Assembly: GCA_019239975.1 (NCBI GenBank)
Contig: JAFAZE010000031.1
Location: 1-64,000 of the forward strand
Length of the DNA: 64,000 bases
Source of the DNA: Streptosporangiaceae bacterium
GTDB lineage: Bacteria > Actinomycetota > Actinomycetes > Streptosporangiales > Streptosporangiaceae
Direction: 5' to 3'
Shown: positions 44,004 through 62,271 of the stretch, piece by piece
How positions within the stretch are numbered: position 1 is the stretch's first letter
Layout: each line of letters starts with the position of its first letter
Program-made: the position numbers and the translations under genes
The notes under the pieces: model-generated
What the model was told of the DNA's origin: nothing
The model's database searches: none
The model's input: the letters and a program-made list of their open reading frames with translations, nothing else

Positions 44004-45269
44004 ATGGAGCAGGTACTGGTCACCGGAATTGGTGTCGTGCTGCCTGGCGCGGTAGGCGCGGAAGAATTCTGGAAGAATCTGCGTGAGGGAAGGTCGCAGA
44101 TCGGGTTCCTTACCCGCTTCGATCCCGGTGTGCTGCCGGTCCGGCTGGCCGCGGAAATAAAGGGCTTCGACCACACTGGGCTGCTCCCCGGGCTGCCCGC
44201 GGAGCACGCCGCCAAGTACACCAGGGAAATCCGCATAGCGATGTCCGCCGTGGCGGATGCCATGCGCGACGCGGGCCTGGATCGCGCCACGGCAGGTGTC
44301 GACCCGGCCCGCATCGGCCTGATCACCTCGTCGTCACGGGGCCCGCTGGAGTGGTGGCACGAAGCGATGCCGAACATGGACGAGGCTGGACCTGGCGCGC
44401 CTTTCGGCGACAGCGGGGCGATGCTGCGCGGTCTCCCCGGCTGCCCCGCCACGATGGCAGCCATCCATTGCGATATCCGGGGCCTGGTCACCACGCTGAG
44501 CAGCGCCTGTGTCGGCGGCAACCACGCGATCGGCATGGCCCTGCACGAACTGCGCGCGGGATGCGCCGACGCCATGCTGGTCGGCGGCCATGAGTTCCCC
44601 ATCCTGCCCGGCGTGGTGAAGTCCTATCTGGCTCTGGGCGACGGCGTCCTCTCCCGGGAGGACTCCGACCCCGCGACCGCGATGAAGCCGTACGACGCCC
44701 GGCGGGACGGCATGGTGCTCGGCGAGGGCGCGGTGGTGCTCTGCCTGGAAAGAGCGGAGTCCGCCCGGGCCCGGGGAGCGCGCGCGTACGCGGAGGTAGT
44801 CGCGCACCGCGCGATCAACGAGGCAAGCCATCCGACGACGATGGACCTGTCCGGCAAGCGTACCCGCGACGTCATCCTCGACGTGCTGGCCGCCAGCCGC
44901 CGCGGTCCCGATGACATCGACTACATCTGCGGACACGGCACCGCGACGCGGTACAACGACATCGCCGAGAGCCGGGCGGTCGCGGCCCTTTACCCGGAAC
45001 GGCCGCCCGCGCGGTGGCCCCCGCTCAGTTCCGTCAAGCCGGTCTACGGTCACTGCCTTGGCGTGTCCGGGGTGGTCAACGTGGCCGCGACCGCCTTGAT
45101 GATCCGTCACGGATGCCTCGTTCCCACCATCAACTACCAGGTGCCCGACCCTGAATGCGACCACGACCACGTGAGCGAGGGAGCCCGGCGCGCCGATGTC
45201 GGCTTCGCCGTTTCGCTGTCCTTCGCGTTCGGAAGCCAGACATCGGTTGTCTCACTGGCGGCGGCATGA
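44004..45269 (+). CDS. Beta-ketoacyl synthase, FabF type (complete catalytic triad)
   Basis: 421 residues, thiolase fold. The FabF-type triad is intact: Cys169 in LSSACVGGNHAIG, His311 in YICGHGTATRYND and His350 in SSVKPVYGHCLGVSG with Lys345. It condenses an acyl starter on Cys with a malonyl-type extender. ATG 44004 follows GGAAGG with six-base spacing. First gene of the thirteen-gene cluster; its stop overlaps the CoA-transferase start (ATGA). It is the only one of the three FabF-type proteins here with all catalytic residues, so probably the true condensing enzyme. Confidence 0.92.
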   Translation: MEQVLVTGIGVVLPGAVGAEEFWKNLREGRSQIGFLTRFDPGVLPVRLAAEIKGFDHTGLLPGLPAEHAAKYTREIRIAMSAVADAMRDAGLDRATAGVDPARIGLITSSSRGPLEWWHEAMPNMDEAGPGAPFGDSGAMLRGLPGCPATMAAIHCDIRGLVTTLSSACVGGNHAIGMALHELRAGCADAMLVGGHEFPILPGVVKSYLALGDGVLSREDSDPATAMKPYDARRDGMVLGEGAVVLCLERAESARARGARAYAEVVAHRAINEASHPTTMDLSGKRTRDVILDVLAASRRGPDDIDYICGHGTATRYNDIAESRAVAALYPERPPARWPPLSSVKPVYGHCLGVSGVVNVAATALMIRHGCLVPTINYQVPDPECDHDHVSEGARRADVGFAVSLSFAFGSQTSVVSLAAA

Positions 45270-46999
45270 CCAGCCACCCCCGGCCGGCGCTGCTCCCCGA
45301 CCCCGACGCGCTCGTGGCCGCCTATTTGCGGCCGGGGATGCACGTTCACCTCTCGGCCACCATGTCCAGGCCGAACGCCCTGATATACGCCCTGGCGCGC
45401 GTCTTCGGCCCGGCGGGAGGCAAGCTCACCGTCAGCACGACCGCCATCCACTCCAGCGCGCATGCCCTGGCCCTGGCCGGCGTCGTCGACCGCGCCGTCA
45501 CCTGCTTCCTCGGCGACACCTATCCCTCGCCGCGGCCCAACCCCCTTTACCGCCGGGTGAACCAGGGCGAGCCGTTCATCTTCGAGGGCTGGTCGCTGCT
45601 GAGCTACCTGCAGCGGCTGGTGGCGGGAGCCACCGGCCTGCCCTACGCGGTGACCACCTCGCTGGCAGGCAGCGACCTCATGCTGGACAAGGCCGGCACT
45701 GCATTTACCGTGCCCGACCCGGCCGGTTCCGGCCAGGACGTTACCCTGCTCACGCCGCTGTGCCCCGATTACACGCTGGTGCACGCGGTGTGCGCGGACC
45801 GCCGCGGCAACCTTGTGCTGTGCGCCCCGATGGGCGAAGGGCCCTGGGGCGCGCTCGCGGCGCGCCGCGGCGTGCTCGCATCGGCCGAACGCATCGTCCC
45901 CGATGCCGTCATCGACTCGCAGCCCGACCGGGTGGTGGTGCCAGGCCACCGCGTGGCAGGCCTGTGCGAGGCGCCGTTCGGCGCGCATCCCCAGTCGCTG
46001 CGCACCGCCGGCATCGCCGGGCTGACCGCGTATCTTGACGACTACCCGTTCACGGCGGACATCACCACGGCGTGCGCGCAGCCGGACACGGCGCTGGAAT
46101 GGTACCGGACCTGGGTTGAGGGCCCGGGCGGCCACGCGGGCTACCTCGCGAAACTTGGCAAGGAGCGGCTCGCCGGGCTCGAGCTTCCGGCTGGGACGGC
46201 GCCGCGGGCGACCGTCGCGCCCGATCCGCCCGGCGGTCCGCTCACCGACCAGCAGCGCCTCATCGTCCTCGGCGCACGGTGCGTCGCGGAAGCGGTGCAG
46301 ACCCGCGGCTACGGCACGCTGCTCGCCGGCATCGGCGCCTCACACATGGCGGCGTGGCTGGCGGCCGCGCTGCTGAGGCTGCGCGGCATCGACGTCGAGG
46401 TGGCCTCAGAACTCGGGTTCAACGGAGTCGACCCGGCGGCCGGTGACGCTTACCTGTTCAGCCAGCGGCATGCCACCCGGTCCACGCAGCTTGCCGGTAT
46501 CGCCGAAATACTCGGCGCGCTGGTAGCCGGAAACCGCGGCCGCTGCCTCGGCGTCCTCGCCGCCGCCGAGGTCGATTCCTGCGGCAACCTGAACACCAGC
46601 AGGCTCGGCGACGGCCGTCACATAACGGGATCTGGCGGAGCGAACGACATCGCCTCGGCAGCCGACTGCGTCGTCGTGGCCACCGCGTCCCGCCGTCGCT
46701 ACGTGCGGCAGGTCGCCTACGTGACCAGCCCAGGGCGCCGGATACAGGCGGTGGTCAGCCAGTTCGGGCGCTTCACGCGGCCGGGCCCGGATCAGCCGTT
46801 CGAGCTGCGCACCTGGCTCCCCCCGGAAGCGCCCGCGTCAGCGAACAGCCCGCGCGCCGCGGTCGCCGCGCTCACCGACTGGCCCTGCCCCGATGGCGGC
46901 GCTGGTGACGGCCGGGAGGGCTGGCGCGCCGAGGAACCAGTTTCCGCGCTGGAGCGGACGCTGCTGAGGCAACTGGACCCGGAGGGGATTTACCGATGA
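45266..46999 (+). CDS. Fused class I CoA-transferase (alpha and beta parts in one chain)
   Basis: 577 residues. Residues 1-~310 resemble the alpha subunit (PGMHVHLSATMSRPNALIYAL, DYTLVHAVCADRRGNL) and ~325-577 the beta subunit (GIGASHMAAWLA, ELGFNG with Glu382, GSGGANDIASAADCVVVATA, YVTSPG) of class I CoA-transferases such as glutaconate CoA-transferase, normally two polypeptides. Glu382 is in the position of the catalytic Glu. It may load or unload CoA on a carboxylate, or hydrolyse a CoA-bound ring like the IpdAB relatives. ATGA overlaps on both sides. Confidence 0.82.
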   Translation: MTSHPRPALLPDPDALVAAYLRPGMHVHLSATMSRPNALIYALARVFGPAGGKLTVSTTAIHSSAHALALAGVVDRAVTCFLGDTYPSPRPNPLYRRVNQGEPFIFEGWSLLSYLQRLVAGATGLPYAVTTSLAGSDLMLDKAGTAFTVPDPAGSGQDVTLLTPLCPDYTLVHAVCADRRGNLVLCAPMGEGPWGALAARRGVLASAERIVPDAVIDSQPDRVVVPGHRVAGLCEAPFGAHPQSLRTAGIAGLTAYLDDYPFTADITTACAQPDTALEWYRTWVEGPGGHAGYLAKLGKERLAGLELPAGTAPRATVAPDPPGGPLTDQQRLIVLGARCVAEAVQTRGYGTLLAGIGASHMAAWLAAALLRLRGIDVEVASELGFNGVDPAAGDAYLFSQRHATRSTQLAGIAEILGALVAGNRGRCLGVLAAAEVDSCGNLNTSRLGDGRHITGSGGANDIASAADCVVVATASRRRYVRQVAYVTSPGRRIQAVVSQFGRFTRPGPDQPFELRTWLPPEAPASANSPRAAVAALTDWPCPDGGAGDGREGWRAEEPVSALERTLLRQLDPEGIYR

Positions 47000-48006
47000 C
47001 GGCTACCGCGGATCCCGCGAAGGCGGCAAAGCCGCTCCCCGCCAGCCTCGCCGGGATCGGCCACTATTTTCCCGGCGACCCGGTACCCAACTCCTACTTC
47101 GAGGCCATCCCGGAGCTCGGCGTGGACGACGACTGGATCCGGCGGCACACCGGCGTCGTGACACGGCACTGGCCGCGTGTGCCCGCCGAGAGACACGTCG
47201 AGATGGGGGTGAAGGCGGCGCGGATGGCACTGGAGGACGCCGGACTCGGCATAGCCGACCTAGATGTCATCATCGGGACCACGGCCACCGCACGGCCGAG
47301 GACCAACCCTTCTTCGGCCGGCAGCAACTATATGGACATCTCGCTGCCGCTGCAGCGCGAACTGGGGGCGCACGCCGCGTTCTGCTTCGACGTCACGGCC
47401 GTGGCCTGCGCCGGGTTCCTCTATTCCAGCGTACTCGCCGGAACGATGCTGTCCGCGCTGAGCGCGAGAAACGTGCTCGTGGTCTGCGCGGAAAGCCCGG
47501 AGCGGATCCTCAACTTCCGGTACCGCAACTCGGTACTTTTCGGCGCCGGCGCGGCGGCCGCTGTCTGGCACCGGTCGCCGTCGCACCCGGGTCTGCTCGA
47601 CGCCGTCCTTCGGGCGGACGGGCGGCATTTCGGCGCCTTCGACATCGACGAAGACGACAAGATGATTATGGACGGGCGGCTGGTCGGCGAACTCGGGCCG
47701 GCCATGCTCATCGACGCGACCAAGGCCATCCTGCACCGGAACGAGCTGGACAGCACCGATATCGAGTGGCTCGTACCGCACCAGGGCAACCTGAACATGG
47801 TCCGGGAGGTCGCCGCCCATTTCGGGCTGCCAGAGGACCGGGTCCTGCTCAACATCTCCCGCCGCGGCAACACCTCCAGCGTCGGCATGCCCAGCTGCCT
47901 TTCTGAGCACGTGCACGACGGCACGGTCCGGCCAGGGCAGTTGCTGCTCGGCGTCAGCATCGGGCGTGGCTTCAGCTGGGGCGCGATGTTGTTCCGCTAC
48001 CGGTGA
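46996..48006 (+). CDS. FabH-like ketoacyl synthase III (first copy)
   Basis: 336 residues, thiolase fold of the KAS III type with the Cys-His-Asn triad intact: Cys138 in VACAGFLYS, His262 in WLVPHQGNLNMV, Asn292 in RRGNTSSVG. It also has the family segment WIRRHTGVVTRHW. KAS III enzymes start chains from acyl-CoA or transfer acyl groups. The start overlaps the CoA-transferase stop (ATGA). Clearly different from the next KAS III, so the two probably handle different substrates or work as a heterodimer. Confidence 0.9.
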   Translation: MTATADPAKAAKPLPASLAGIGHYFPGDPVPNSYFEAIPELGVDDDWIRRHTGVVTRHWPRVPAERHVEMGVKAARMALEDAGLGIADLDVIIGTTATARPRTNPSSAGSNYMDISLPLQRELGAHAAFCFDVTAVACAGFLYSSVLAGTMLSALSARNVLVVCAESPERILNFRYRNSVLFGAGAAAAVWHRSPSHPGLLDAVLRADGRHFGAFDIDEDDKMIMDGRLVGELGPAMLIDATKAILHRNELDSTDIEWLVPHQGNLNMVREVAAHFGLPEDRVLLNISRRGNTSSVGMPSCLSEHVHDGTVRPGQLLLGVSIGRGFSWGAMLFRYR

Positions 48007-48055
48007 TCGTCCGTCGAGGCACAGGCATCCAGGCGCTACCGCAGCGGAGGGCTGA

Positions 48056-49027
48056 GTGAACCGAAGAGGAATCTGGGCAGACAGCGGAATCCGCATACGC
48101 GGCTTCGGCCACTACTATCCACGCCAGCTCATTCACAATGACCTGCGCAGCCTCGACACCATGCCGTCAAGCGAGGTCGACGACAAGATCCTCGGCCGGA
48201 TCAGCGTGCGCAGCCGACACCGGGCCGATGAAAGGGAGACGGTGCTGGTCATGGCCGTCGAGGCGGCCGCAGAGGCAGTGAAGCGGGCCGAGGTGGACCC
48301 CGCCGAACTCGACCTCGTGCTGTTGACCAACTGGACAGACCGGCTGTACGCCCCGGAGATGGCGCCACAGGTCGCCTACGCCATCGGGGCACGACGGGCG
48401 CTCGGGTTCGACCTTTGCGGTGCCTGCACGGGATTCGTGCACGCCGTGCAGACCGCGGCGGCCTACCTCCTCTCGCCGACCGCGCTGCGCACGGCGCTGA
48501 TCGTCTCCTCAGAGCGGTTCTCCCGGCGGGTGCGGCCAGGCTCGCGCGGCGAACTGGTCGCGGGCGACGCCGCGGCGGCCGCGGTGCTGGAACGCGGCGA
48601 TCCCGCGGTGCCCGGGCTCCTGGACTCCGTTCTGCACAGCAAAGGTGAATACGCGGATCTTACCGTCGGCCAGCCGCCGGACGGCTGGGTGCGCAGCCGC
48701 CCCGGGCTTGTCGAGCAGGCGGTCCAGTCCATCACCGAAACGGTCAGCGAGCTGCTGGATCGCAATGGCCTGGACATCGCCGACATCGACTGGCTGGTGC
48801 CGCATTCCGGCACCGCCCCCATCTTCACCACGATCCAGGAAAAGATCGGCATCGCCCCGGAAAAGTTCGTGACCAACTTCGAGACCAGGGCCAACACGTC
48901 CAGCGCGTCCATACCGGTCGTGCTCTCCGAGAACTGCGCCAACGGCACCTTCCGGAGGGGTGATCTGTTCCTGACGCCAGCGGTCGGCGGGGGGTGGTTC
49001 TATGGCGGGCTCCTCTTCCGGCTCTGA
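48056..49027 (+). CDS. FabH-like ketoacyl synthase III (second copy)
   Basis: 323 residues, KAS III type with the Cys-His-Asn triad: Cys124 in FDLCGACTGFVHA, His250 in DWLVPHSGTAP, Asn280 in TRANTSSAS. The GTG start at 48056 follows GGAGG by five bases. Its coding end overlaps the next SDR start by 26 bp. Two intact KAS III enzymes next to three FabF-type proteins is unusual for a single pathway. Confidence 0.9.
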   Translation: MNRRGIWADSGIRIRGFGHYYPRQLIHNDLRSLDTMPSSEVDDKILGRISVRSRHRADERETVLVMAVEAAAEAVKRAEVDPAELDLVLLTNWTDRLYAPEMAPQVAYAIGARRALGFDLCGACTGFVHAVQTAAAYLLSPTALRTALIVSSERFSRRVRPGSRGELVAGDAAAAAVLERGDPAVPGLLDSVLHSKGEYADLTVGQPPDGWVRSRPGLVEQAVQSITETVSELLDRNGLDIADIDWLVPHSGTAPIFTTIQEKIGIAPEKFVTNFETRANTSSASIPVVLSENCANGTFRRGDLFLTPAVGGGWFYGGLLFRL

Positions 49028-49841
49028 TGTGAGCCGCCCCGGCTCTGACGAAAGCGGCGCCGGCCGTCGTGCGGTCATCACCGGCGGCAGCCGCGGGCTC
49101 GGGCTCGCGGTGGCCAGGCGGCTCGCTGCGAGCGGATGGTCCCCCACCATCTGCGGCCGGGACGCCGGCGCGCTCGAACGGGCCAGGCTCGCCGCGGCCG
49201 GGGACGGCCTCGCGCTGAACACCGTCGCGGCGGATGTCACCTGCGAGGAATCGGTGCGCAGGATGTTCAGCCGCCTTGACGCTGATGGCCCCGTTCATCT
49301 GTGCGTCAGCAACGCCGGCGCGAACAAACCCCAGCTACTGGTCCGGCGCGGGCCCGAGGGCGCTGTGCGCCGGCATCCGCTCTCCGACTGGGAAGAAACC
49401 ATCCGGCTCTGCCTGACCGGGGTGTTTCTCACCGGCCGGGAGGCCGCCGCGGCCATGGTAGCCCGCGACGTGCCCGGCGTGATCATCAACATCTCCTCCG
49501 CCGTGCGCCGCGGCGCCTACGGGCAGTCGGCGTACACCTCTGCCAAGGCAGGCGTGGACGCACTCACGCGCACCTGGGCGCTGGAACTCGCCAGGTACGG
49601 CATCCGCGTGCTGGGGGTGGCCCCTGGCGTGATCGACGGCGCCGCGCTACGGGCACCGCGCGACGACGGCGGGCGGCACGCGGCCTACATGAACAGCCTG
49701 CGCGAGCACATACCGCTGCGGCGCTGGGCCGGCGACGAAGAGATCGCGGCGGCCGTGTGCTTCGCCGCGGACCACCCCTACATCACGGGAACCGTACTGG
49801 AGGTTGACGGCGGTGGAGTACCCGAACATATCCGCACCTAG
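49002..49841 (+). CDS. Short-chain dehydrogenase/reductase
   Basis: 279 residues, classical SDR. Cofactor motif VITGGSRGLGLAVARRL, NAG in VSNAGANKP, catalytic Ser in NISSAVRRGAYGQS and YxxxK in AYTSAKAGVDALTR; ends with the usual TGTVLEVDGGG. Probable ketoreductase acting on a beta-ketoacyl intermediate. An insertion of about 15 residues after NAGANKP (LLVRRGPEGAVRRHPLSD) is longer than in FabG. Confidence 0.9.
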   Translation: MAGSSSGSDVSRPGSDESGAGRRAVITGGSRGLGLAVARRLAASGWSPTICGRDAGALERARLAAAGDGLALNTVAADVTCEESVRRMFSRLDADGPVHLCVSNAGANKPQLLVRRGPEGAVRRHPLSDWEETIRLCLTGVFLTGREAAAAMVARDVPGVIINISSAVRRGAYGQSAYTSAKAGVDALTRTWALELARYGIRVLGVAPGVIDGAALRAPRDDGGRHAAYMNSLREHIPLRRWAGDEEIAAAVCFAADHPYITGTVLEVDGGGVPEHIRT

Positions 49842-50664
49842 CCACGCCGCCCCGGCACCTGGTCCCCTGCTGCCAGATCGCACACTTCTGGTGGCCGGGG
49901 CCAGTGGCGGGATCGGCGCTCAGATAGCCCGGCTGGCGGTCGCCCAGGGAGCCAGGGTGGTGCTGCTCGGCCGGGACGCAGAGCGGCTCGAAGGGCTCCG
50001 CAAGGAACTCGCCGGCCACGGTGGCGAGGCGATCGCCGCCGTCGCCGACGTCTGTGATGCCGAGAGCCTGCGGCTGGCACTGGAGCGCTGCCGTGACCAC
50101 TTCCCGCCGCCCGACCTTCTCGTCACCAGCGTGGTGTACGGGCAGCGCCAGGTTTTTCTTTGCGAGCAGGAAGAAGAGGACTGGGTCCACACCATCGACG
50201 TCAACCTCAACGGCGCTTTCCGGCTGTGCCGCCGCGTCGTGCCCGAGATGATGCGGCGCCGGTCCGGCGGCATCGTGCTGATCTCCTCGGTCGCAGGCAC
50301 CCGCGGGCTACCGTCGAACACCGCCTACTGCGCGTCCAAATTCGGTCTCAACGGGCTGGCCAAGGCGCTCGCGGCCGAGGTCGGCCCGTTCGGTGTCCGG
50401 GTGAACGCCGTCTGCCCAGGGTTGACCGACACTCAGCTGCTGCTCCGCGAGGATGCGTACGGCCAGGACTTCATGGACAGCCTTCGGCGTCACCATGGGC
50501 CGCCCGATCTCACCTGGGCCCGCTACGTCAACCGGGCTGTCCGCAACACCGCGATCCGCCGGCTGGTCCGGCCAGAGGAAGTCGCATGGCTCACCGTTTT
50601 CCTGCTGTCTGACCTTTCCAGCGGAATGACCGGGCAGACCATCGGCATCGACGGGGGGAGCTGA
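49813..50664 (+). CDS. Short-chain dehydrogenase/reductase
   Basis: 283 residues. Cofactor motif LVAGASGGIGAQIARLA, catalytic Ser in LISSVAGTRGLP and YxxxK in AYCASKFGLNGLAKAL; C-terminus TGQTIGIDGGS. The NAG motif is replaced by TSVVYGQ. GTG 49813, preceded by GGAGG, is taken as start; TTG 49804 is possible. Overlaps the preceding SDR by 29 bp. Role probably reduction or oxidation at a ring or chain carbon; substrate unknown. Confidence 0.9.
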   Translation: MEYPNISAPSHAAPAPGPLLPDRTLLVAGASGGIGAQIARLAVAQGARVVLLGRDAERLEGLRKELAGHGGEAIAAVADVCDAESLRLALERCRDHFPPPDLLVTSVVYGQRQVFLCEQEEEDWVHTIDVNLNGAFRLCRRVVPEMMRRRSGGIVLISSVAGTRGLPSNTAYCASKFGLNGLAKALAAEVGPFGVRVNAVCPGLTDTQLLLREDAYGQDFMDSLRRHHGPPDLTWARYVNRAVRNTAIRRLVRPEEVAWLTVFLLSDLSSGMTGQTIGIDGGS

Positions 50665-50667
50665 ACC

Positions 50668-52002
50668 GTGCGGACAGCGGACAGCACGGGGCCGCGCGAC
50701 GCACTCGTCACCGGCATGGGTTTCTGCCTGCCCGGCGCCGACGGCATGCCATGCACGAGCCGTGCGGATTTCTGGCGATCGATCTCGGCCGGCACCTCAC
50801 ATGTCGAGCGGGACGGTGTCTTCTTCGGGCGGTTCGATCTGCCCGGCGACACGCTGGGGCGGTGGTTTCCCGCCCTTCCGGACGGGCACCTGCGCAACTA
50901 TTCCGAAGTGCACCGCTACGGGCTCGTCTCACTCGGCGAGGCCTGCGCCGATGCCGGGCTCGACCCCAGGTCGGGCGACCTGCGCGACGCGGCCGTGCTG
51001 ACCGCCCGGGTCTCGGTCGATACGTCGTTCGACACCTATAAGACCTGGCTGGACGCGGATCCGGAGCAGCTCACGCCAGCGCAGGCGCGGGCACTGTTCG
51101 CGAGATTGGGCATCTCCGTGGGGATGACCGACGTCGCCGTCGTGCAAGCGGCGGTGCTCGGCAGCACCGGGCCCAATTTCACGCTCTCCTGCGGCTGCGC
51201 GTCCTCAGCCGTGCTGATCGGCACGGCCCAGCAGCTCATCGCGGCCGGAGAGACCGAGATGGCGGTCGTTACCGGCGTCGATCACTACAACCTGGACCGG
51301 CGTGACCATGCCGAGCGCCTGCTGGCGGTGGCGGCCCGCACCGAGGGCGCCCAGGCATCTGCCGCCGGGCGGGCGGCCGCCGCGCACGTGCGGTGCGACG
51401 AGCTCATGCGGCCATACGACGAGGCGGCCGCCGGAACCAACCTCGGCATAGGGTCAGTCACCTTGATCCTGGAGAGCCGGGAGCATGCGTACCGCCGGGA
51501 AACCCAGGGCTATGCGCGGGTTGTGGCGCAGAGCACGCGGCGTGCACCGCTGACCAGCGCGGTCGGCGTCGACGAGCAGGGCAGCGCCTGTGTGGCCGCC
51601 ATCGGGCAGTGTCTCGGCGCCGCCGGGATCACGGCCGGGCAGGTCGACTACGTCAACGGCGGCGCCAACGGCGACCCGCTGCTGGGCCTCGTCGAGTCGA
51701 ACGCACTCGGGACCGTCTTCGGCGAGTCCGTCGCCGGGCTGCCGGTCAGCTCCCAGGAAGCCTGTTTCGGTCACAGCGGGGCACCGCTGGGAGCTCTCGG
51801 GGTAGCCGCGACTGCTCTGATGGCACAGCGAGGTGAGGTCTGCCCGACCGCGGCGTGCCAGAAACCATCCCCGGAATGCCCGTTCGATCCGCTGCCGGGA
51901 ACCATGACCCGGCGGCGGCGCATCGGCTATGCGCTGAGCATGAATCATCAGGTCGGCTCGATCGCCAGCGCGGTCCTCATCGCAGCAGAGAAGACGAGGT
52001 GA
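50668..52002 (+). CDS. FabF-type ketosynthase homologue lacking the first catalytic His
   Basis: 444 residues, KS fold. The nucleophile Cys177 remains in FTLSCGCASSAV and the last His369 in EACFGHSGAPLGALG, but the first His motif (normally HGTxT) reads YVNGGANGDP with Gly332 in the His place, and the Lys that precedes the last His is Glu364. This should impair malonyl decarboxylation. It may be a chain-length-factor-like partner of the first ketosynthase, an acyltransferase, or a divergent condensing enzyme. GTG start at 50668 with GGGGGAG upstream. Confidence 0.85.
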   Translation: MRTADSTGPRDALVTGMGFCLPGADGMPCTSRADFWRSISAGTSHVERDGVFFGRFDLPGDTLGRWFPALPDGHLRNYSEVHRYGLVSLGEACADAGLDPRSGDLRDAAVLTARVSVDTSFDTYKTWLDADPEQLTPAQARALFARLGISVGMTDVAVVQAAVLGSTGPNFTLSCGCASSAVLIGTAQQLIAAGETEMAVVTGVDHYNLDRRDHAERLLAVAARTEGAQASAAGRAAAAHVRCDELMRPYDEAAAGTNLGIGSVTLILESREHAYRRETQGYARVVAQSTRRAPLTSAVGVDEQGSACVAAIGQCLGAAGITAGQVDYVNGGANGDPLLGLVESNALGTVFGESVAGLPVSSQEACFGHSGAPLGALGVAATALMAQRGEVCPTAACQKPSPECPFDPLPGTMTRRRRIGYALSMNHQVGSIASAVLIAAEKTR

Positions 52003-52007
52003 AACCG

Positions 52008-53570
52008 GTGACAGCCGCGCCACCGGGGCGGTCCGGCCAGGGCGCCGGCACATCAGCGGCCCGGCCGGCCACCGTCCCGGCCTCGCTCTGCCCGGCGGGG
52101 ACGGCCGCCGCGGTCGTGGGCGCCGACCTTCCCGGCGGCGCCGAGGTAGTGGGGACACTCGAGACGCTCGGCCTCAAGCTGGCCGGGGAGAATTGCCCCG
52201 CCCCCGTCTCCGTCCCCGTGGCCACCGTCCCGGACGTCTACTGCGTCCTGCACACCGGAAACGACGCGCTCGGGAGCCAGCACCTGTCCCGTCCGCTGCC
52301 CAGGCAGCGCATCCTGAACACGGTGGCGGCGATGGCCGAGCGCGGCCATGGCCGGCTGGTCCTGGTCACTGACGCGACTCATCATGTGCATGCTGGCGGG
52401 AACCCGGACAACGCCGCCAGCCAGGCGGCCGACCTGCACTGGTGGCGCCAGATCGTCGCCCGGTACGCTCCCCGCGGCATCATCGGGAACCAGGTGGCCA
52501 TCGGTTATGCCCCGTTCCTCGGGCACCGGCTGGAGCGGGAGCGAGCCTCCGATCTCCTCCGTCACCTTCTGATCCGCCGCCCAGCCCGCCCCGATGACCT
52601 CAGCTCGGCCCTCCGCTTGCTGATCTCGGCGGGATGCGGGCACACGGTGGGCGACACGGTGCCGGTGGACGGGGGAATGGACGCGTTGTTCATCCCGGCC
52701 CGGTCCGGGGCGCCCGGCGCGCCGGTCACTTCGGCACCGGCGGCTGAGCCGGGCAGCGACCCGTTCGACCTCACCGGCCGGGTGGCGATAGTGGTCGGAG
52801 CGAGCAGCGGAATCGGCAGGGCCTGCGCGGTGGAACTGGCCGCGCGCGGCGCCGACGTGGTGCTGGTGGCCCGGCGGGAGCCGGAGCTGGGCGCCGTGGC
52901 CGGGCTCATCGAGGCCTCGGGACGGTCAGCGTGGGTGCTGCCGGCTGACATGGCCGAGCCGGACACGGTCCCAGCGCTGGTGAAGCGGGCGTGGGAAGAA
53001 AGCCGCGGCGTGGACATTCTCGTCTACGCGGCGGGCGAACTCGCCTTCGACCAGCTTGATGACAACGCCGCGATGCGTAACCGGCTGCTGCGGGTGAACC
53101 TCTCCGCCTACGCCGCCGTCTGCGACGAGCTGATCCGCCGGTGGGTCGCCATCGCGCGTCCCGGTACCGTGGTGGCGGTCAGTTCGGTCAGCGCCACCTT
53201 CATGCCCGCCATCCGCGCGCAGACCTATGCCGCCAGCAAGGCGGGCATGGGGCAGTACACACGTGTGCTGGCGACGACCGCGGCCAGGTACGGAGTCCGT
53301 GCCAACTGTGTCAGGCCCGGCGTCATCCGCACGCCCATGGCGGAAAGCGCGGCCAGCGCAGAGTACCAAAAGCACTGGCTGTCGCGGATCCCGCAGGGCA
53401 AGGTGGGCCGGCCCGAGGATGTCGCCGCGCTGGTCGGGTACCTGGCAAGCCCAGCCGCGAGTTATGTCACCGGGGCTCAGCCGCTCGTCGACGGCGGATT
53501 CGCGCTCGGCGGGCTGCCGCCGCTTGCCGCCCGGCATGCCGGCGGCACGACGCGGGAGCGGGCGCTATGA
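52008..53570 (+). CDS. Tandem SDR fusion: degenerate N-terminal and active-looking C-terminal SDR
   Basis: 520 residues. The C-terminal half (from ~252) is a complete SDR: VVGASSGIGRA, AAGE, Ser393 in VAVSSVSATF, Tyr407 and Lys411 in TYAASKAGMG, TGAQPLVDGGF. The N-terminal half keeps an SDR outline (RLVLVTDATHHVHAGG, GDTVPVDGGM) but the Tyr/Lys segment reads NAASQ and no glycine motif is visible. Architecture recalls mycobacterial FabG4, which has a non-catalytic N-terminal domain. GTG 52008 has an AGGTGA site; GTG 51999 overlaps the ketosynthase stop. A paralogue lies at 58800. Confidence 0.85.
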   Translation: MTAAPPGRSGQGAGTSAARPATVPASLCPAGTAAAVVGADLPGGAEVVGTLETLGLKLAGENCPAPVSVPVATVPDVYCVLHTGNDALGSQHLSRPLPRQRILNTVAAMAERGHGRLVLVTDATHHVHAGGNPDNAASQAADLHWWRQIVARYAPRGIIGNQVAIGYAPFLGHRLERERASDLLRHLLIRRPARPDDLSSALRLLISAGCGHTVGDTVPVDGGMDALFIPARSGAPGAPVTSAPAAEPGSDPFDLTGRVAIVVGASSGIGRACAVELAARGADVVLVARREPELGAVAGLIEASGRSAWVLPADMAEPDTVPALVKRAWEESRGVDILVYAAGELAFDQLDDNAAMRNRLLRVNLSAYAAVCDELIRRWVAIARPGTVVAVSSVSATFMPAIRAQTYAASKAGMGQYTRVLATTAARYGVRANCVRPGVIRTPMAESAASAEYQKHWLSRIPQGKVGRPEDVAALVGYLASPAASYVTGAQPLVDGGFALGGLPPLAARHAGGTTRERAL

Positions 53571-54388
53571 CCGGCGAACGGCCTCTTCAGGGGCAGGTCG
53601 CGCTGGTGGCCGGAGCCTCCTCGGGCATCGGCGCCGCGATCGCGGTCGCCCTCGCCGCCAACGGCGCCGCGGTATCGCTGGTCGCCCGCCGTACCAGCGA
53701 ACTGAGTCAGGTCCGGGATGCGGCGGCCGCGCATGACGTCACGGCCATCTCGCTGGTCGCCGACCTCGCCCACCCCGCCGAGCCCGCCCGGGTCATGGCC
53801 GCCACCGTGGAGAGCCTCGGCCCCGTCGACATCCTGGTGAACAGCGCCGCGGCGGTGCAGATCAACCGGATCGACCAGATCGAGCCCCGGCACTGGGAAC
53901 TGCAGATGCGGCTGAACGTCACGGCTCCGTACCTGCTCTCACGGCTCGCCTTGCCGGGCATGCGGGAGCGCGGCCATGGCTGGATCGTCAATATCAGCTC
54001 CGCGGTGGCGCTGGAGACCATACCCGGCACTGGCCCCTACGCGGTCAGCAAGCAGGCGCTGAACACGCTGACCGAGCTCATCGACGCCGAGAACCGGGAA
54101 CGCGGGATCCGGGCCGTGGCCTGCTGCCTGGGCTGGGTCGCCACCCGGCTGTCGCCGGCGCTGGAGGGGTACGGCGTGTGCGAGCAAGACCTGCTCCGCC
54201 CCGGGGATGTGGCCGACGCGGTGCTGTGGATCATGACACGGCCGCACCGGGTCGGGATCGGGCCAATCATCCATTTGGCGCCCACCAGCCCGAACGCGGC
54301 CACACGTGGTTCGGTCGAGCGGTTCATCCGCGGCGGAGCGGGCGCCGGCGGAGCGGCGTCGCCCGATCGGAAGGAGGTGAATCGGTGA
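53567..54388 (+). CDS. Short-chain dehydrogenase/reductase
   Basis: 273 residues. Motifs ALVAGASSGIGAAIAVALA, NSAA in place of NNAG, NISSAVALETIPG (Ser) and YAVSKQALNTL (Tyr, Lys). The C-terminal half is shorter than in FabG and lacks the VDGG ending, with PHRVGIGPIIHLAPTSPN instead. ATGA overlap with the preceding fusion; its end contains the perfect AAGGAGGTGA site of the next gene. Confidence 0.88.
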   Translation: MTGERPLQGQVALVAGASSGIGAAIAVALAANGAAVSLVARRTSELSQVRDAAAAHDVTAISLVADLAHPAEPARVMAATVESLGPVDILVNSAAAVQINRIDQIEPRHWELQMRLNVTAPYLLSRLALPGMRERGHGWIVNISSAVALETIPGTGPYAVSKQALNTLTELIDAENRERGIRAVACCLGWVATRLSPALEGYGVCEQDLLRPGDVADAVLWIMTRPHRVGIGPIIHLAPTSPNAATRGSVERFIRGGAGAGGAASPDRKEVNR

Positions 54389-55392
54389 GCTTCGGCACCG
54401 CGGATCAGCCGCTGGCCGTCGTCGACGTGTGCGCACTGGTCTATGACCGCGACTGCTGGGCCGCTTACCTCGGCCGCCTGGGCGCCGACGCCCCGGCGTA
54501 TCTCCGGGTCTTCGCGGCCGCGTTCTGCAGGTATTTCAGCGTATCCGCTGCCGATTACCTGGACAGCCTGGATGAACATGGCCCCGCGGCCGCCGTGGCG
54601 AAGCTGGTGGCGTCCGTGCCCGAGCGGGTGGACGTGGCCAGCCATCTCGCGGAGATGGAGACGCAGGGTGTCGTCCACGAGGTGGCGCATGGCTGGCCGG
54701 GCCGACTCAGCGACGGCGACACCATCAACGACCGGGTGGCCGCCCTGGCTGACGCCTCCGGCGGGCGGATACAGGCGTGGGCGGGAGTATCGCTGCGCGA
54801 CCCCGACGAGGCGGCGGCAGAGATCCGCCGGTGCCAGCGAGCCGGGGTCCGCGGCGTGTGCGCGGCCCCGTTCCTCGACGGCGTCGATGCCGCCGATCCC
54901 GCAAGAGACCGGATCTTCAGCGTGGCCGAGGAGCTGGGACTGCCGTTCTGGATCCACACCGGCAACCACTTCGTCGCCGACCGTCCGCTGGACCTGTTCG
55001 ACTGGCGGCATCTGGACCGGATCGCGGGCCGGCATCCGGACCTCACCGTTGTCGCCGGGCACGGGGGCTGGCCCTGGGTCCGTGAGCTCGTCACGGTGAT
55101 GAGGCGGCACCGCCGCGTCTACCTGGAGTTTTCCTCCCACCGTCCGCGGCATCTCGGCCGCCCGGGCGCGGGCTGGGAGCCGCTCCTGCTGTATGGCCGC
55201 GGGCCGGTGCGCGACCGGGTCATGTTCGGATCATGCACCTGGGTGCAGCCGGTCCCGGTGAGCGTGCTCGCGCGGGAGGTGGCGGAACTCGGGCTCGGCG
55301 CGGAGGTTACCTCGGACTGGCTGGCCGGGAACGCCGCCCGCCTTCTCGGGCTTCCGCAGCTTGTCCCCGCGCAACCGGTGCGTTCTGCATGA
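54385..55392 (+). CDS. Amidohydrolase-2-type protein with altered metal site
   Basis: 335 residues with the TIM-barrel outline of the amidohydrolase-2 (PF04909) family: FWIHTGNH (His191), VVAGHGGWPWV (His226) and the C-terminal NAARLLGL. The usual first-strand HxH is replaced by VVDVCALV, and the FGSD motif reads FGSCTW with Cys284 in the Asp place. Canonical zinc hydrolysis is therefore doubtful; it could be a decarboxylase, cyclase or binding protein. GTG start with AAGGAGGTGA four bases upstream, overlapping the SDR stop (GTGA). Confidence 0.75.
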   Translation: MSFGTADQPLAVVDVCALVYDRDCWAAYLGRLGADAPAYLRVFAAAFCRYFSVSAADYLDSLDEHGPAAAVAKLVASVPERVDVASHLAEMETQGVVHEVAHGWPGRLSDGDTINDRVAALADASGGRIQAWAGVSLRDPDEAAAEIRRCQRAGVRGVCAAPFLDGVDAADPARDRIFSVAEELGLPFWIHTGNHFVADRPLDLFDWRHLDRIAGRHPDLTVVAGHGGWPWVRELVTVMRRHRRVYLEFSSHRPRHLGRPGAGWEPLLLYGRGPVRDRVMFGSCTWVQPVPVSVLAREVAELGLGAEVTSDWLAGNAARLLGLPQLVPAQPVRSA

Positions 55393-56723
55393 CCTCGGCC
55401 GCCGCTGGCAGCAGATCGGCCGCCCCGGTCCTGGAGCTGACCGGAACCGGTTTCTGCCTCCCGGGTCCGGCCGGAGTCTGCCGGAGTCGCGCCGAATTCT
55501 GGCGGATCGTCGCGGACGGGATCTGCTGCCTGACGCCATTCGAACTGCCCGGCCTGCCGCTGCGGCTGGCCGGGCAGGTACACGGCTTCGACGTGGTGGA
55601 GAGCGCCGGCATCGACGCCCGGCTCGCGGGCTGGGCGTCGCGGCCCGCGCGGCTGGCAATCGGCGCGGTCCACCAGGCGCTCGCTGACGCCGCCCTGCAT
55701 CCGTCCGGCCTGGACGAACGCAGCGTGATCATACTGGCCTCGCTGCAGTTCTCTTACTCGGAGGCAGAACGGCACCTGACCACCTACAGCCGGTACGGCG
55801 CGGCGGGGCTGAAGATTGATTACTGGCTCAACGGCACCTGCCCCAGCGTGCTGGGCACGGTGTGCAAAGCGCTGGGCCTCGAGTGCCCGACGCTCAGCAT
55901 CACCGGCTCGTGCAACGCCGCGGCCCGGGCGCTCCATGTCGCGCTGACCATGTTCCGCGCGGGCGAAATCGACCGTGCGGTGATCGTGGGCGCTGACGTC
56001 AGCCTCGACCCGGTCTTCGTGGCGAGCACCACCTACGAAAGCAGGCACGGCTTCCGGCCGGCGTCACTGTCCGCCGACCCGAGCTCGGTCCGGCCCCATG
56101 ACGAGGTCCAGGAGGGAAACGCCACCGGCGAGGGAGCGGTCGCCATCGTGCTGGAGACGCCGGAGGCCGCCGCCCGGCGCAGGGCTCTGGCGCCCGGGAA
56201 CCCGGTCCCGGCCGGGCTGCCGCTCCGGCTGTACGCGCGTACCTCCCGCCGCCATGGCGAGGCGCCGATCGTCAGCGGCGAGGCGGGCAACATCGCCGAC
56301 GACGTCGCGTATGTCCTTGCGCAGGCGGGCGCCACCTTGGCCGACGTCGGCTTCGTCAACGGGTACGCGGAAGGAAACCGTTCCGTTGAGGACCATTTCT
56401 GCGATGCGGTCCAGCGCATCCGGAAACGGCTCAGCTATCCCGGTGCGATCCTCCTCACCAACCAGGAGGCGGCCTTCGGGCATATCGCCGGCATCTCGGG
56501 ACTGATCAAAGTCGTTAGCTCGGCGCTGATGCTGGACCACGGCCTCGCCGGCCCCAGCGTCAACTGCCGGAAGCCCTACCACCGGCTCGCAGCCGAACCT
56601 GTGACAGGCGGCCCTGTCGCCGTAACGGCGAACCTGGCCCTGACGCTGTCCGCGGGCGCGGGCGGCGACGCCACCACCGTGCTGGTGGAACACCTCCCAA
56701 GACAAGGAAAAGACCGGTTATGA
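55389..56723 (+). CDS. FabF-type ketosynthase homologue lacking the first catalytic His
   Basis: 444 residues, KS fold. Cys175 is kept in ITGSCNAAARALH and the last His365 in EAAFGHIAGISG, but the first His motif reads FVNGYAEGN with Tyr326 in the His place and Glu360 in the Lys place. It shares the NG-x-A motif and QEA-x-FGH with the ketosynthase at 50668, so these two form a subgroup distinct from the first ketosynthase. ATGA overlaps on both sides. Confidence 0.85.
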   Translation: MTSAAAGSRSAAPVLELTGTGFCLPGPAGVCRSRAEFWRIVADGICCLTPFELPGLPLRLAGQVHGFDVVESAGIDARLAGWASRPARLAIGAVHQALADAALHPSGLDERSVIILASLQFSYSEAERHLTTYSRYGAAGLKIDYWLNGTCPSVLGTVCKALGLECPTLSITGSCNAAARALHVALTMFRAGEIDRAVIVGADVSLDPVFVASTTYESRHGFRPASLSADPSSVRPHDEVQEGNATGEGAVAIVLETPEAAARRRALAPGNPVPAGLPLRLYARTSRRHGEAPIVSGEAGNIADDVAYVLAQAGATLADVGFVNGYAEGNRSVEDHFCDAVQRIRKRLSYPGAILLTNQEAAFGHIAGISGLIKVVSSALMLDHGLAGPSVNCRKPYHRLAAEPVTGGPVAVTANLALTLSAGAGGDATTVLVEHLPRQGKDRL

Positions 56724-57913
56724 CCAGCAGCACGTGCCCATACCCGTTCAACCGGAACAGTCCCTTCGAGCCGGCGGCGGAATTTACCCGGTTGCGGCTC
56801 GAGGAACCAGTGACCCAGGTGATCCTGCCCAGCGGGGAGCCCGGCTGGGTCGTTTCCCGCTATCAGGATGTGGCGACCGTCCTCGAAGACAGCCGGTTTG
56901 GCCGCGCTGACCTGATGAAGCCGGATGCACCTACCTATTCCGGCGTCCAGCCACCCCCGGTGGTGGCGGCATCGATGGCCGCGATGGACCCCCCGGAACA
57001 CTCGAGGGTGAGGTCGATGGTCAACCGTGAGTTCACGGCCCGGCGAGTGGAATTGATGCGGCCGGTGATCCAGCGGTACGCCGACCAGATCGTCGCCGAC
57101 ATGGCTTCGCGCACGCCGCCGGCGGACCTCAGCGAGCAGCTGTCGTTCGACCTACCGGTCAAGGTGATCAGCGAGCTTCTCGGTGTTCCGCCGGTGGACA
57201 GAGACAAGTTCGGCCGCTGGTCACGCACGGCGGCGCAGCTCGACCGTGACCCCGGTGAGATCCTCGCGGCGGCGCAGGCACTGTACGAATACATGAACGG
57301 GCTGGTCGCGGACAAACGCAAGAACCTGGGAGCGGACCTTCTCAGCGCGCTGATCGCCCAGCACGGCGAGGATCACATGACGGATGTGGAACTCGTCATC
57401 ATGGGCCTGACCATGCTGCTCACCGGATACGCCACAACCAGTGTGGTGCTCACCTCATGCCTGGCCACGCTCCTCGCCATCCCGGCGCGGTGGGAGGAAC
57501 TACAGAAGAACCCATCGCTGGTGGCCGACGCCGCCGAGGAGGCTCTACGGCTCAATCCTCCCGGCAACGGCGGCATGATGCGCATTACCAGGCAGGAGGT
57601 GGAACTGGGCGGCGTGGTGATCCCCAGGGGCGTGATCGTGATGGCGGCGCTGGACTCGGCCAACCGCGATCCGGCGCGCTTTCCGGCGCCCGACAGCTAC
57701 GATCCGCGGCGGAGCGAGAACGCGCACCTGTCGTTCGGCCGTGGCATCCACTACTGCCTGGGCGCGGCGCTGGCCCGGGCCGAGATCCAGATCGCGGTCG
57801 AGACCCTGCTCCGCAGACTCCCCACGCTGCGTCTCGCCGTGCGCCCGGAGGACCTCGAGTTCAACGCGCACTCTCTGGAGGGCGGCGTGCGGTCCCTGCC
57901 GGTTACCTGGTAA
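56720..57913 (+). CDS. Cytochrome P450
   Basis: 397 residues, soluble bacterial P450. Heme-binding loop FGRGIHYCLGAALARAE with proximal Cys346, ExxR in EEALRL (Glu274, Arg277), and DPPEHSRVRSMVNREF. The I-helix reads LLTGYATTS, so the acid of the usual acid-alcohol pair is Ala238. That change is known in P450s that use non-standard oxygen activation or substrate-assisted chemistry. No ferredoxin gene is adjacent. It probably oxidises the product or an intermediate. Confidence 0.94.
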   Translation: MTSSTCPYPFNRNSPFEPAAEFTRLRLEEPVTQVILPSGEPGWVVSRYQDVATVLEDSRFGRADLMKPDAPTYSGVQPPPVVAASMAAMDPPEHSRVRSMVNREFTARRVELMRPVIQRYADQIVADMASRTPPADLSEQLSFDLPVKVISELLGVPPVDRDKFGRWSRTAAQLDRDPGEILAAAQALYEYMNGLVADKRKNLGADLLSALIAQHGEDHMTDVELVIMGLTMLLTGYATTSVVLTSCLATLLAIPARWEELQKNPSLVADAAEEALRLNPPGNGGMMRITRQEVELGGVVIPRGVIVMAALDSANRDPARFPAPDSYDPRRSENAHLSFGRGIHYCLGAALARAEIQIAVETLLRRLPTLRLAVRPEDLEFNAHSLEGGVRSLPVTW

Positions 57914-57947
57914 CGGCCGGCGCCAACCTGGAGGAAAGGACAACCGG

Positions 57948-58790
57948 ATGACCATGCCCGAGCTGGCGGGACTGGGGCGCACAGGCGCGGGACCTGTGCT
58001 GCAGCGAGACGACCGCGGCGGTGCCGCCCGTTTCCGCCTGAACCGGCCGCTCCGCAACAACTGCCTCAACAGCGACCTGTGCGACGCGCTGCTCGCGGGA
58101 CTGCTGGAGGCCAGCGCTGATCCTGCGGTCAGGGTGATCGTCATCACCGGCGCTGGTGATGCCTTCTGTTCCGGGGAAGAACTGGACACCGGCTACTCCG
58201 CTGTCCCCCAGGCCGCTGTCCCCCGAGCCGCCGCCGGCCAAGTGTGCCGGCAGATGCCCGATTTGCCCTATCTCCGGATCTGCGAGGCAATCCTGCATGC
58301 GCCGAAACCGGTTATCGCCGGAATCAACGGCGTATCGGCCGGCGCAGGGACCGAGATCGCGTGCGCGGCCGACTATCGCCTGGCCGCCGATACCGCCCGC
58401 ATCGGCAGTTTCCTGACCACCATGGGCCAGCTGGGCAACGCCGTCATGCTTCCCAGGGTCGTAGGGTGGGCACGGGCGACGGAGATCTATCTCACCGGAC
58501 GGCTTGTTCCTGCCGCTGAAGCAGCCGAGATCGGGCTGGTGAACCGCACCGTGGTGGCCGAGGATCTCGACGCCGAGCTGGACGTGCTCGCCGCGCGGCT
58601 GGCCAGCGGCCCCACCAAGGCGATCGGCATGTACAAGGAGCTGCGAGACCGGGCCTGGGGGCAGCCCGTGGAGTACGGCCTCCATCTGCAGGGCATCTAT
58701 CACCGCCGCGCGGACCGCGAATTGTCCGACGGCGCCGAGGGTGTTTCCGCGTTCCTGGAGGACCGGCTCCCGCGGTTCAGCGGCGAGTGA
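57948..58790 (+). CDS. Enoyl-CoA hydratase/isomerase (crotonase) family protein
   Basis: 280 residues, crotonase fold. Oxyanion-hole segments are DAFCSGEELD and GVSAGAGTEIACAADYRLA. The catalytic Glu of the GGGCE position is present (GAGTE), whereas the second Glu (usual QPE) is replaced in IGSFLTTMG, a pattern seen in isomerases and other crotonase activities. ATG 57948 follows GAGGAAAGGA. This is the only gene here that could catalyse hydration/dehydration of a CoA thioester, so it supports CoA-bound chemistry. Confidence 0.88.
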   Translation: MTMPELAGLGRTGAGPVLQRDDRGGAARFRLNRPLRNNCLNSDLCDALLAGLLEASADPAVRVIVITGAGDAFCSGEELDTGYSAVPQAAVPRAAAGQVCRQMPDLPYLRICEAILHAPKPVIAGINGVSAGAGTEIACAADYRLAADTARIGSFLTTMGQLGNAVMLPRVVGWARATEIYLTGRLVPAAEAAEIGLVNRTVVAEDLDAELDVLAARLASGPTKAIGMYKELRDRAWGQPVEYGLHLQGIYHRRADRELSDGAEGVSAFLEDRLPRFSGE

Positions 58791-58799
58791 GCTCCGTAC

Positions 58800-60245
58800 A
58801 TGCCAGATGAGATTCTGATCAGCACCGCACTCCTGCGGTCGGCCGGCGCGACGGCAGGGGTCGAGGGAAGCCGGCTGCCCGGCGGTGCTGAGGTGGCGCG
58901 GATCCTGCGACGGCTTGGCCTGGAGACGGCCATGGATCCGGGGACGGCGGCTTCCGGCGACGAGGAGGCGCCGGATATCTACTGCGTGCTGCAGACAGGC
59001 AACGAGGCCTTCGGGAGCAGGGACGCCGCCCCACCGCTCCAGCGCGAGACGATTCTGCGAACCGTTCGGGCGATGTCACGGCGCCGAACGGGACGCGTGA
59101 TCCTGATAACGGACTCCGGTCAGCACATCAATGTGTGGGCAGACCCAGCGCGCTCTGCCCAGCGGGCAGCCGACCTGCACTGGTTCCGCCACCTGACGGC
59201 GCGTGCGGCCGGGCACGGAATTACCGGCAACGAGGTCACGGTCGGCTATGCCCCGTTCCTCGGCCATCGGCTCAAGCCCGAACGTGAGCAGCAGTTCCTC
59301 GGCGGCCTCCTGATACCTCGCTTCGCGGTCCCGGACGACTTGACGGCCGCGCTGCGGATGCTGGCCTCCCGGGGAGCGGCGCACCTGGCGGGTGAGACCG
59401 TCCCGTTGACAGGCGGCATGAACACCCATCTGGTCCCGCCGAACGTTGCGAGAATGAGCCGACCGGTAACGGCTGGGAGGGCACCGGCCGGCAGCGGAGA
59501 TCCGTTCAGCATCGCCGGCCGTGTGGTGTTGCTGGCGGGCGCTACCAGCCGCACCGGAAGGGCGGTAGCGCGCGAACTGGCACGCCGCGGCGCCGCACTG
59601 GCCGTGGTGGCGCGCAGGCCGGAATCACTCGAACAGATCGTCGCTGAGTTGCGTGAGATCGGCGCGACCGCGTGGGGAATACCGGCGGATCTGACGGATC
59701 CGGGCAGCGCTGAGCTGGTCGTTGACCGGTTCTGGGACATCACCAGCGGGATTGACGTGATGATCTACGCCGCAGGCAAATTTGATTTCGATGTTATTGG
59801 TGATAATCGCGAACGCCGAGGGCGCATGCTGGGGATCAACCTGTGCTCATTCGCCGAGATGTGTGATGCTCTGGCGGAGCGCTGGATACTCACGCGGCGC
59901 CCAGGCACAGTTGTCAGCGTGGGAATGGCGCATGCGAACATGCCGGCAGTTCCTCATGTGCAGACATATGGATCGAGCAAGGCCGCGATGGTGGATCACA
60001 CACGGCTGCTCGCGGCGACTGGATCCCGCTACGGAATACGAGCCAACTCGGTATGTACCGGCGCTGTCCGCTGCCATGGCCAGCCAGACTGGTATGACGG
60101 AATGGCTGGGCTCGTCTGTTACCTGGCAAGTCCCGCGTCAAGCTACGTGACCGGCGCCGCGATAACGCTCGATGGTGACAGCGGCTTGGCGCACTCCGGG
60201 GCGCCGCTCAGGTACACGCACCGCGAGCAGTTGCTGGACTGGTAG
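58800..60245 (+). CDS. Tandem SDR fusion with both halves degenerate
   Basis: 481 residues, a full-length paralogue of the fusion at 52008 (shared LPGGAEV, YCVL-TGNEAFGS, QRAADLHWFR, VGYAPFLGHRL, YLASPASSYVTGA). In the C-terminal half, Tyr390 and Lys394 remain (TYGSSKAAM), but the glycine motif reads AGATSRTG (Arg251 for the middle Gly) and the catalytic Ser position holds Met (VSVGMAHANM). It may be a non-catalytic partner of the other fusion. Last gene of the cluster; its stop is 4 bp from the stop of the convergent response regulator. Confidence 0.83.
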   Translation: MPDEILISTALLRSAGATAGVEGSRLPGGAEVARILRRLGLETAMDPGTAASGDEEAPDIYCVLQTGNEAFGSRDAAPPLQRETILRTVRAMSRRRTGRVILITDSGQHINVWADPARSAQRAADLHWFRHLTARAAGHGITGNEVTVGYAPFLGHRLKPEREQQFLGGLLIPRFAVPDDLTAALRMLASRGAAHLAGETVPLTGGMNTHLVPPNVARMSRPVTAGRAPAGSGDPFSIAGRVVLLAGATSRTGRAVARELARRGAALAVVARRPESLEQIVAELREIGATAWGIPADLTDPGSAELVVDRFWDITSGIDVMIYAAGKFDFDVIGDNRERRGRMLGINLCSFAEMCDALAERWILTRRPGTVVSVGMAHANMPAVPHVQTYGSSKAAMVDHTRLLAATGSRYGIRANSVCTGAVRCHGQPDWYDGMAGLVCYLASPASSYVTGAAITLDGDSGLAHSGAPLRYTHREQLLDW

Positions 60246-62235: not shown

Positions 62236-62271
62236 CATATAGCCGGGTGCCTTATGCGTGAAGGGATTTCC

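Follow-up and report, generated by a model that had tools for sequence, protein, structure and literature searches.

A probable nonactin/pamamycin-type, ACP-less and non-iterative type II polyketide synthase in a Streptosporangiaceae genome

Introduction

Classical type II polyketide synthases (PKSs) are built on a minimal set of ketosynthase (KS), chain-length factor (CLF) and carrier protein (ACP) together with an aromatase/cyclase, and the chain-length factor lacks the Cys. The literature on ACP-less type II PKSs goes back to studies on the macrotetrolide antibiotic nonactin in 2000–2002, and the cluster for the antibiotic pamamycin followed in 2015 (PMC10817512, PMC9582728, PMC4979870). 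The nonactin cluster encodes five KSs and four ketoreductases (KRs) and no ACP, and is described as an ACP-less, non-iterative type II PKS (PMC10817512), in which NonJ and NonK are C–O bond-forming KSs (PMC9582728, PMC10817512). In the published schemes succinyl-CoA serves as a starting unit, the pathway runs through CoA thioesters and the furan is closed by a NonS-type crotonase; a decarboxylation step is also proposed (PMC4979870, PMC11051294); a NonL-type ligase is needed in the published scheme to activate the finished hydroxy acid. Dinactin is made by a strain of S. globisporus, with the genes Dyn4 (NonS), Dyn5 (NonL), Dyn9 (NonJ) and Dyn10 (NonK) (PMC10817512). The published pamamycin operons are pamA,B,D,E,O,K,J,M,N,L,H and pamF,G,C (PMC10644645), and PamC is an ACP (PMC8176718).

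The locus described here lies in a window of 64,000 nucleotides (the whole stretch of DNA that was analysed) from a Streptosporangiaceae bacterium. The contig is 66.8 kb long and ends 6.6 kb past the last cluster gene, and the draft genome is 93% complete.

Organization of the gene cluster

Positions 44004–60245 hold 14 co-directional genes, all on the plus strand and with every domain call confirmed by Pfam. The original prediction had counted 13 co-directional genes; the common direction holds, while the genes in its own list sum to 14. The families that it had named, namely KSs, a CoA-transferase, SDRs, SDR fusions, an amidohydrolase, a P450 and a crotonase, were all recovered by Pfam. Adjacent genes overlap at nine of the 13 junctions, in seven cases by 4 bases, which is the usual sign of translational coupling. 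Codon bias (GC3) is coding-like in most of the genes, and all 14 frames are open and tightly coupled, with the catalytic residues kept. The features are as follows.

44004–45269, plus strand: KS1, FabF-type ketosynthase (Pfam), PamA orthologue with an intact Cys-His-His
45266–46999, plus strand: fused class I CoA-transferase (PF01144 twice), PamB orthologue
46996–48006, plus strand: FabH1, KAS III-type synthase (Pfam), PamE orthologue with a Cys-His-Asn triad
48056–49027, plus strand: FabH2, KAS III-type synthase (Pfam), PamD/PamK family, Cys-His-Asn triad
49002–49841, plus strand: SDR1 ketoreductase (Pfam), PamO orthologue
49804–50664, plus strand: SDR2 ketoreductase (Pfam), present in the nonactin clade, no pam orthologue found
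50668–52002, plus strand: KS2, FabF-type (Pfam), PamJ orthologue, putative NonK
51999–53570, plus strand: SDR fusion 1 (Pfam), a degenerate SDR joined to an active SDR, PamM orthologue, putative NonM
53567–54388, plus strand: SDR3 ketoreductase (Pfam), PamN orthologue, putative NonN
54385–55392, plus strand: amidohydrolase-2 fold protein (PF04909), at the PamH position, also in nonactin-type clusters
55389–56723, plus strand: KS3, the most divergent FabF-type protein (Pfam), putative NonJ orthologue, absent from pam
56720–57913, plus strand: cytochrome P450 (PF00067), specific to the window cluster
57948–58790, plus strand: crotonase-fold protein (PF00378), counterpart of the nonactate synthase NonS
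58800–60245, plus strand: SDR fusion 2 (Pfam), paralogue of SDR fusion 1 (45% identical)
60250–60846, minus strand: NarL/LuxR-type response regulator
60850–61473, minus strand: NarL/LuxR-type response regulator; both are 43–44% identical to the regulator of a homologous cluster

With the two minus-strand NarL-type genes as its likely regulators, the cluster probably reaches as far as 61473. Downstream of these genes, positions 62254–63750 encode a protein of the sulfotransferase family (PF13469) whose C-terminus is extended by a long stretch. An NCBIfam scan of ten cluster proteins returned generic names only, and no nonactin- or pamamycin-specific model was matched.

Ketosynthases and KAS III-type enzymes

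KS1 shows 56% identity to its S. alboniger and S. globisporus counterparts, and its motifs SSACVGG, CGHGTAT and VYGHCLG are conserved across the family. FabH1 and FabH2 are 57–66% and 44–59% identical to their relatives, respectively. With the intact Cys-His-His of KS1 and the Cys-His-Asn of FabH1 and FabH2, three decarboxylating enzymes are therefore available. KS2 (50–51% identity to the nonactin clade) keeps the Cys with the HGT histidine replaced (VNGGANG), and KS3 (48–52% identity to the same clade) keeps the Cys with the HGT motif replaced (VNGYAEG). Nearly every member of the family shows this pattern, with the Cys and the GH histidine kept and the HGT histidine lost. Judged from the residues, it fits an acyl transfer to a hydroxyl more readily than a decarboxylative condensation, and would agree with the C–O bond-forming role of NonJ and NonK. 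The NonK/NonJ-type pair is present as KS2 and KS3, an assignment drawn from the published gene order.

A classical aromatic type II PKS was rejected, since there is no ACP, aromatase or cyclase and KS2 and KS3 keep the Cys; residues and gene content likewise led to the rejection of a fatty acid synthase and of a chain-length-factor role. The earlier statement had also been that the locus is neither a standard type II PKS nor a fatty acid synthase.

CoA-transferase, amidohydrolase, crotonase and P450

The CoA-transferase, with alpha and beta parts in one chain, is 54–57% identical to those of the pam and nonactin-clade clusters, and the sequence ELG is invariant across the family at the expected position of the class I catalytic Glu. 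Its nearest solved fold is glutaconate CoA-transferase. A role as an IpdAB-type ring hydrolase was weighed, and the conserved ELG favours, weakly, a true transferase. As a marker query for related clusters the CoA-transferase is poor: it turns up mostly fused homologues with 32–39% identity in other actinobacterial classes, with no KS detected in flanks of about 1.5 kb. PamB and similar proteins may have a catabolic origin in this group.

The amidohydrolase-2 protein shows 46–53% identity to its relatives, and the nearest solved proteins are BB4693 and 2,3-dihydroxybenzoate decarboxylase. It is a candidate for the decarboxylation step of the published schemes, although the proteins of this cluster family (here 54385–55392) have DVC/DAC in place of the usual N-terminal HxH metal motif of the superfamily. 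The crotonase is 50–54% identical to the crotonases of relatives, where it belongs to the corresponding gene set, and a NonS-type role in furan closure is predicted. For the P450, no protein more than 43% identical was found in the genomes of nine relatives.

Comparison with the pamamycin and nonactin clusters

The locus of the pamamycin producer S. alboniger (ATCC 12461) has the order KS1-CoAT-FabH2-FabH1-SDR1-FabH2'-KS2-SDRfus1-SDR3-AMP ligase-amidohydrolase, followed on the opposite strand by KS2', FabH and a 109-aa ACP. This fits the published pam operons gene by gene; genes were assigned to Pam letters by position, the source papers giving operon orders and not a function per letter. The window shares with pamamycin KS1 (PamA), the CoA-transferase (PamB), FabH1 (PamE), SDR1 (PamO), KS2 (PamJ), SDR fusion 1 (PamM), SDR3 (PamN) and an amidohydrolase at the PamH position, whereas pam has no orthologue of KS3 or SDR2. 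Conversely, the pamF,G,C operon with its ACP, the published pamX,Y pair and the PamL ligase were not seen in the window; the contig has no PamC-like protein, and the genome has no second KS2 homologue of the pamF type.

A second group is formed by the loci of S. globisporus, S. anulatus, S. microflavus, S. californicus and S. werraensis, which have the common order KS1-CoAT-FabH1-FabH2-SDR1-SDR2-KS2-KS3-SDRfus1-SDR3; in S. anulatus SDR3 is followed by a NonD-type hydrolase, a ligase and a crotonase. Read backwards (crotonase, ligase, NonD-type, SDR3, SDR fusion, KS3, KS2) the S. anulatus locus matches the order of the Dyn4–Dyn10 series, and the clade has exactly the five KSs, four KRs and no ACP published for nonactin. 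It is very probably the nonactin cluster, on the grounds of species, gene order and gene content and not of the S. griseus sequence. The window has orthologues of all five KSs (KS1, FabH1, FabH2, KS2 and KS3) and all four KRs of the S. globisporus-type set, mostly at 45–66% identity (45–58% against S. globisporus and S. anulatus), as well as the CoA-transferase, and likewise no ACP. The first seven genes are in identical order, and the NonS-type crotonase and the amidohydrolase-2 protein are both also seen in S. anulatus and S. megasporus. Unlike the nonactin type, the window has KS3 moved behind the amidohydrolase gene, carries in addition a P450 and one more SDR fusion, and is without the NonL ligase, the NonD hydrolase, the alpha/beta-hydrolase and the ABC exporter.

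Several discrete KSs, three FabF-type and two FabH-type, thus stand in one cluster, and the core genes are orthologous to those of a characterised member, in similar order (S. alboniger pam and the nonactin-type clade). The locus is very likely an ACP-less, non-iterative type II PKS of the nonactin/pamamycin kind that forms a branch of its own, but its differences speak against listing it under either of these two clusters in the strict sense. The original prediction that the set matches no known pathway does not hold, the core genes being orthologous to, and largely in the same order as, the nonactin/pamamycin set. Its suggestion of a new class had been set against a close match to a characterised cluster, and such a match exists at the level of cluster type.

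Absence of a carrier protein

In the whole draft genome PF00550 (PP-binding) was found at two places only, neither of them at the cluster: the fabH-acpP-fabF fatty-acid-synthase locus on contig 86, and a 2,279-aa frame of NRPS size on contig 104. A motif scan found no DSL-type carrier motif in any frame of the contig, and no acyltransferase, thioesterase, aromatase or cyclase is found among the 14 cluster genes. The lack of all five functions had been noted from the start, and these searches agree with it. The locus itself truly lacks an ACP, since the genome-wide Pfam search and the contig motif scan are both empty there; a genome-wide absence is less certain because of the incompleteness of the draft. 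Homologous clusters do not always carry an ACP: the pam relatives do, with pamC in a separate divergent operon, and none was seen in the nonactin clade.

The synthases might use the ACP of the housekeeping fatty acid synthase, or one from elsewhere, in place of CoA. The genome does have the fabH-acpP-fabF locus, and PamC is reported to be decisive for full production, chiefly of the heavy pamamycins (PMC8176718). PamC, however, is encoded in pamF,G,C, an operon whose reported role is the extension of the small hydroxy acid to the large one and which is absent here; no PamC-like protein occurs in the nonactin-clade stretches compared, the published nonactin cluster has no ACP, and the window retains a CoA-transferase and a crotonase, both CoA enzymes. 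We therefore regard a borrowed ACP as improbable, and the CoA-bound intermediates originally suggested from the same two enzymes stand as the best explanation.

Missing and added genes

An acyl-CoA ligase of the NonL/PamL type was not found on the contig, and the best matches in the draft genome have 34–35% identity as against 50–57% between cluster types. NonD is likewise missing from the contig (best full-length match 36%), as are the cluster alpha/beta-hydrolase and the ABC exporter. With these four functions missing, the product may not be a macrotetrolide. Their loss could also mean that the locus is a degraded remnant of a nonactin-like cluster and no longer productive, but this is very improbable, given the 14 open and coupled frames with their catalytic residues, and the added P450 and SDR fusion 2, which look like gains relative to the known clusters.

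Phylogeny and distribution

In a concatenated tree of five proteins the window falls within a pamamycin and nonactin superclade with a support of 100/100, and on the nonactin side of it with a moderate 87/90 (97 in an earlier quick tree), on a long branch of its own. About 30 related clusters exist. An alignment of nine FabH1 sequences worked as a query for relatives; KS3 alone as query gave no relative among the named genomes searched. In the family of the window genome such a cluster is rare, a close KS2 being present in only two of the 343 genomes searched, namely the window genome and Allosalinactinospora. The hypothesis of a carrier-protein-free synthase of a new class, without kinship to any characterised pathway, could draw on this rarity and on the P450 and second SDR fusion that are unique to the window, together with the missing ligase, but core orthology and gene order are common to the pamamycin cluster and the nonactin-type clade, and at class level it is refuted because pam matches gene by gene, leaving it with hardly any probability.

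Allosalinactinospora lopnorensis (contig 16), of the same family as the window genome, has a syntenic, uncharacterised block KS1-CoAT-FabH1-FabH2-SDR1-SDR2-KS2-KS3 with 41–59% identity. This eight-gene set and a crotonase are shared with the window; unlike the window, A. lopnorensis has a ligase and NonD, no SDR fusion, SDR3, amidohydrolase or P450 was found in its cluster, and it falls in a different clade of the tree. Among Streptomyces, 45 of 393 genomes have a KS2 homologue, a minority of these in clusters of the nonactin/pamamycin kind. In about 30 of the 45 the homologue seems to lie outside such a cluster; the seven loci of this sort that were examined have a second KS-like frame just downstream of it, which in two annotated cases is a type I PKS of about 2,100 aa.

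Clusters of the nonactin/pamamycin kind also occur in Catenulispora, Saccharopolyspora, Amycolatopsis and Phytoactinopolyspora, and outside the actinomycetes. Mediterraneibacter agrestimuris DSM 111629 (NZ_CALPDG010000014.1), of the Lachnospiraceae and thereby a member of the Bacillota, has a full, divergent ACP-less set with KS1, a CoA-transferase, two FabH1, FabH2, SDR1, KS2, KS3, two SDR-fusion-like frames and SDR3, adjoining genes similar to acyl-CoA carboxylase and acyl-CoA dehydrogenase. This set is not actinobacterial contamination, because the genome has 34% GC. In Propionibacterium acidifaciens DSM 21887, an actinobacterium outside Streptomyces, the cluster type is represented by a further deep branch.

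Proposed pathway and significance

Building on the observed orthology, gene content and residue patterns, a pathway can be proposed in which every chemical step is drawn from the enzyme families named above. By analogy, the best reading is a CoA-tethered PKS whose product would be a hydroxy acid with a tetrahydrofuran ring, or esters of it, with oxidation by the P450. FabH1, FabH2 and KS1 would each join two CoA thioesters directly in a single decarboxylative condensation, the substrates by analogy being succinyl-CoA with malonyl- or methylmalonyl-CoA. The fused CoA-transferase would re-attach CoA to a free carboxylate and so allow extension from the other end of the succinate, the SDRs would reduce ketones stereospecifically, and the crotonase, like NonS, would close the tetrahydrofuran by oxa-Michael addition. 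KS2 and KS3 would act as acyltransferases making C–O (ester) bonds, as published for NonK and NonJ, and the P450 and SDR fusion 2 would tailor the product. For the product-level steps the chances are about even. A bolder and more doubtful possibility is that the locus represents a third functional branch of ACP-less PKSs, in which the CoA-transferase would replace the nonactate-CoA ligase and the P450 would oxidise the furan hydroxy acid, to give a product that is neither macrotetrolide nor macrodiolide.

The general picture of polyketide synthesis is unchanged by this cluster. Very few products of ACP-less type II PKSs are characterised (nonactin and pamamycin), yet the family is wider, and the window adds to it a deeply branching member whose set of tailoring genes is altered. 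It could serve to test whether such a pathway can do without the final ligase, and may be the source of a new furan polyketide.
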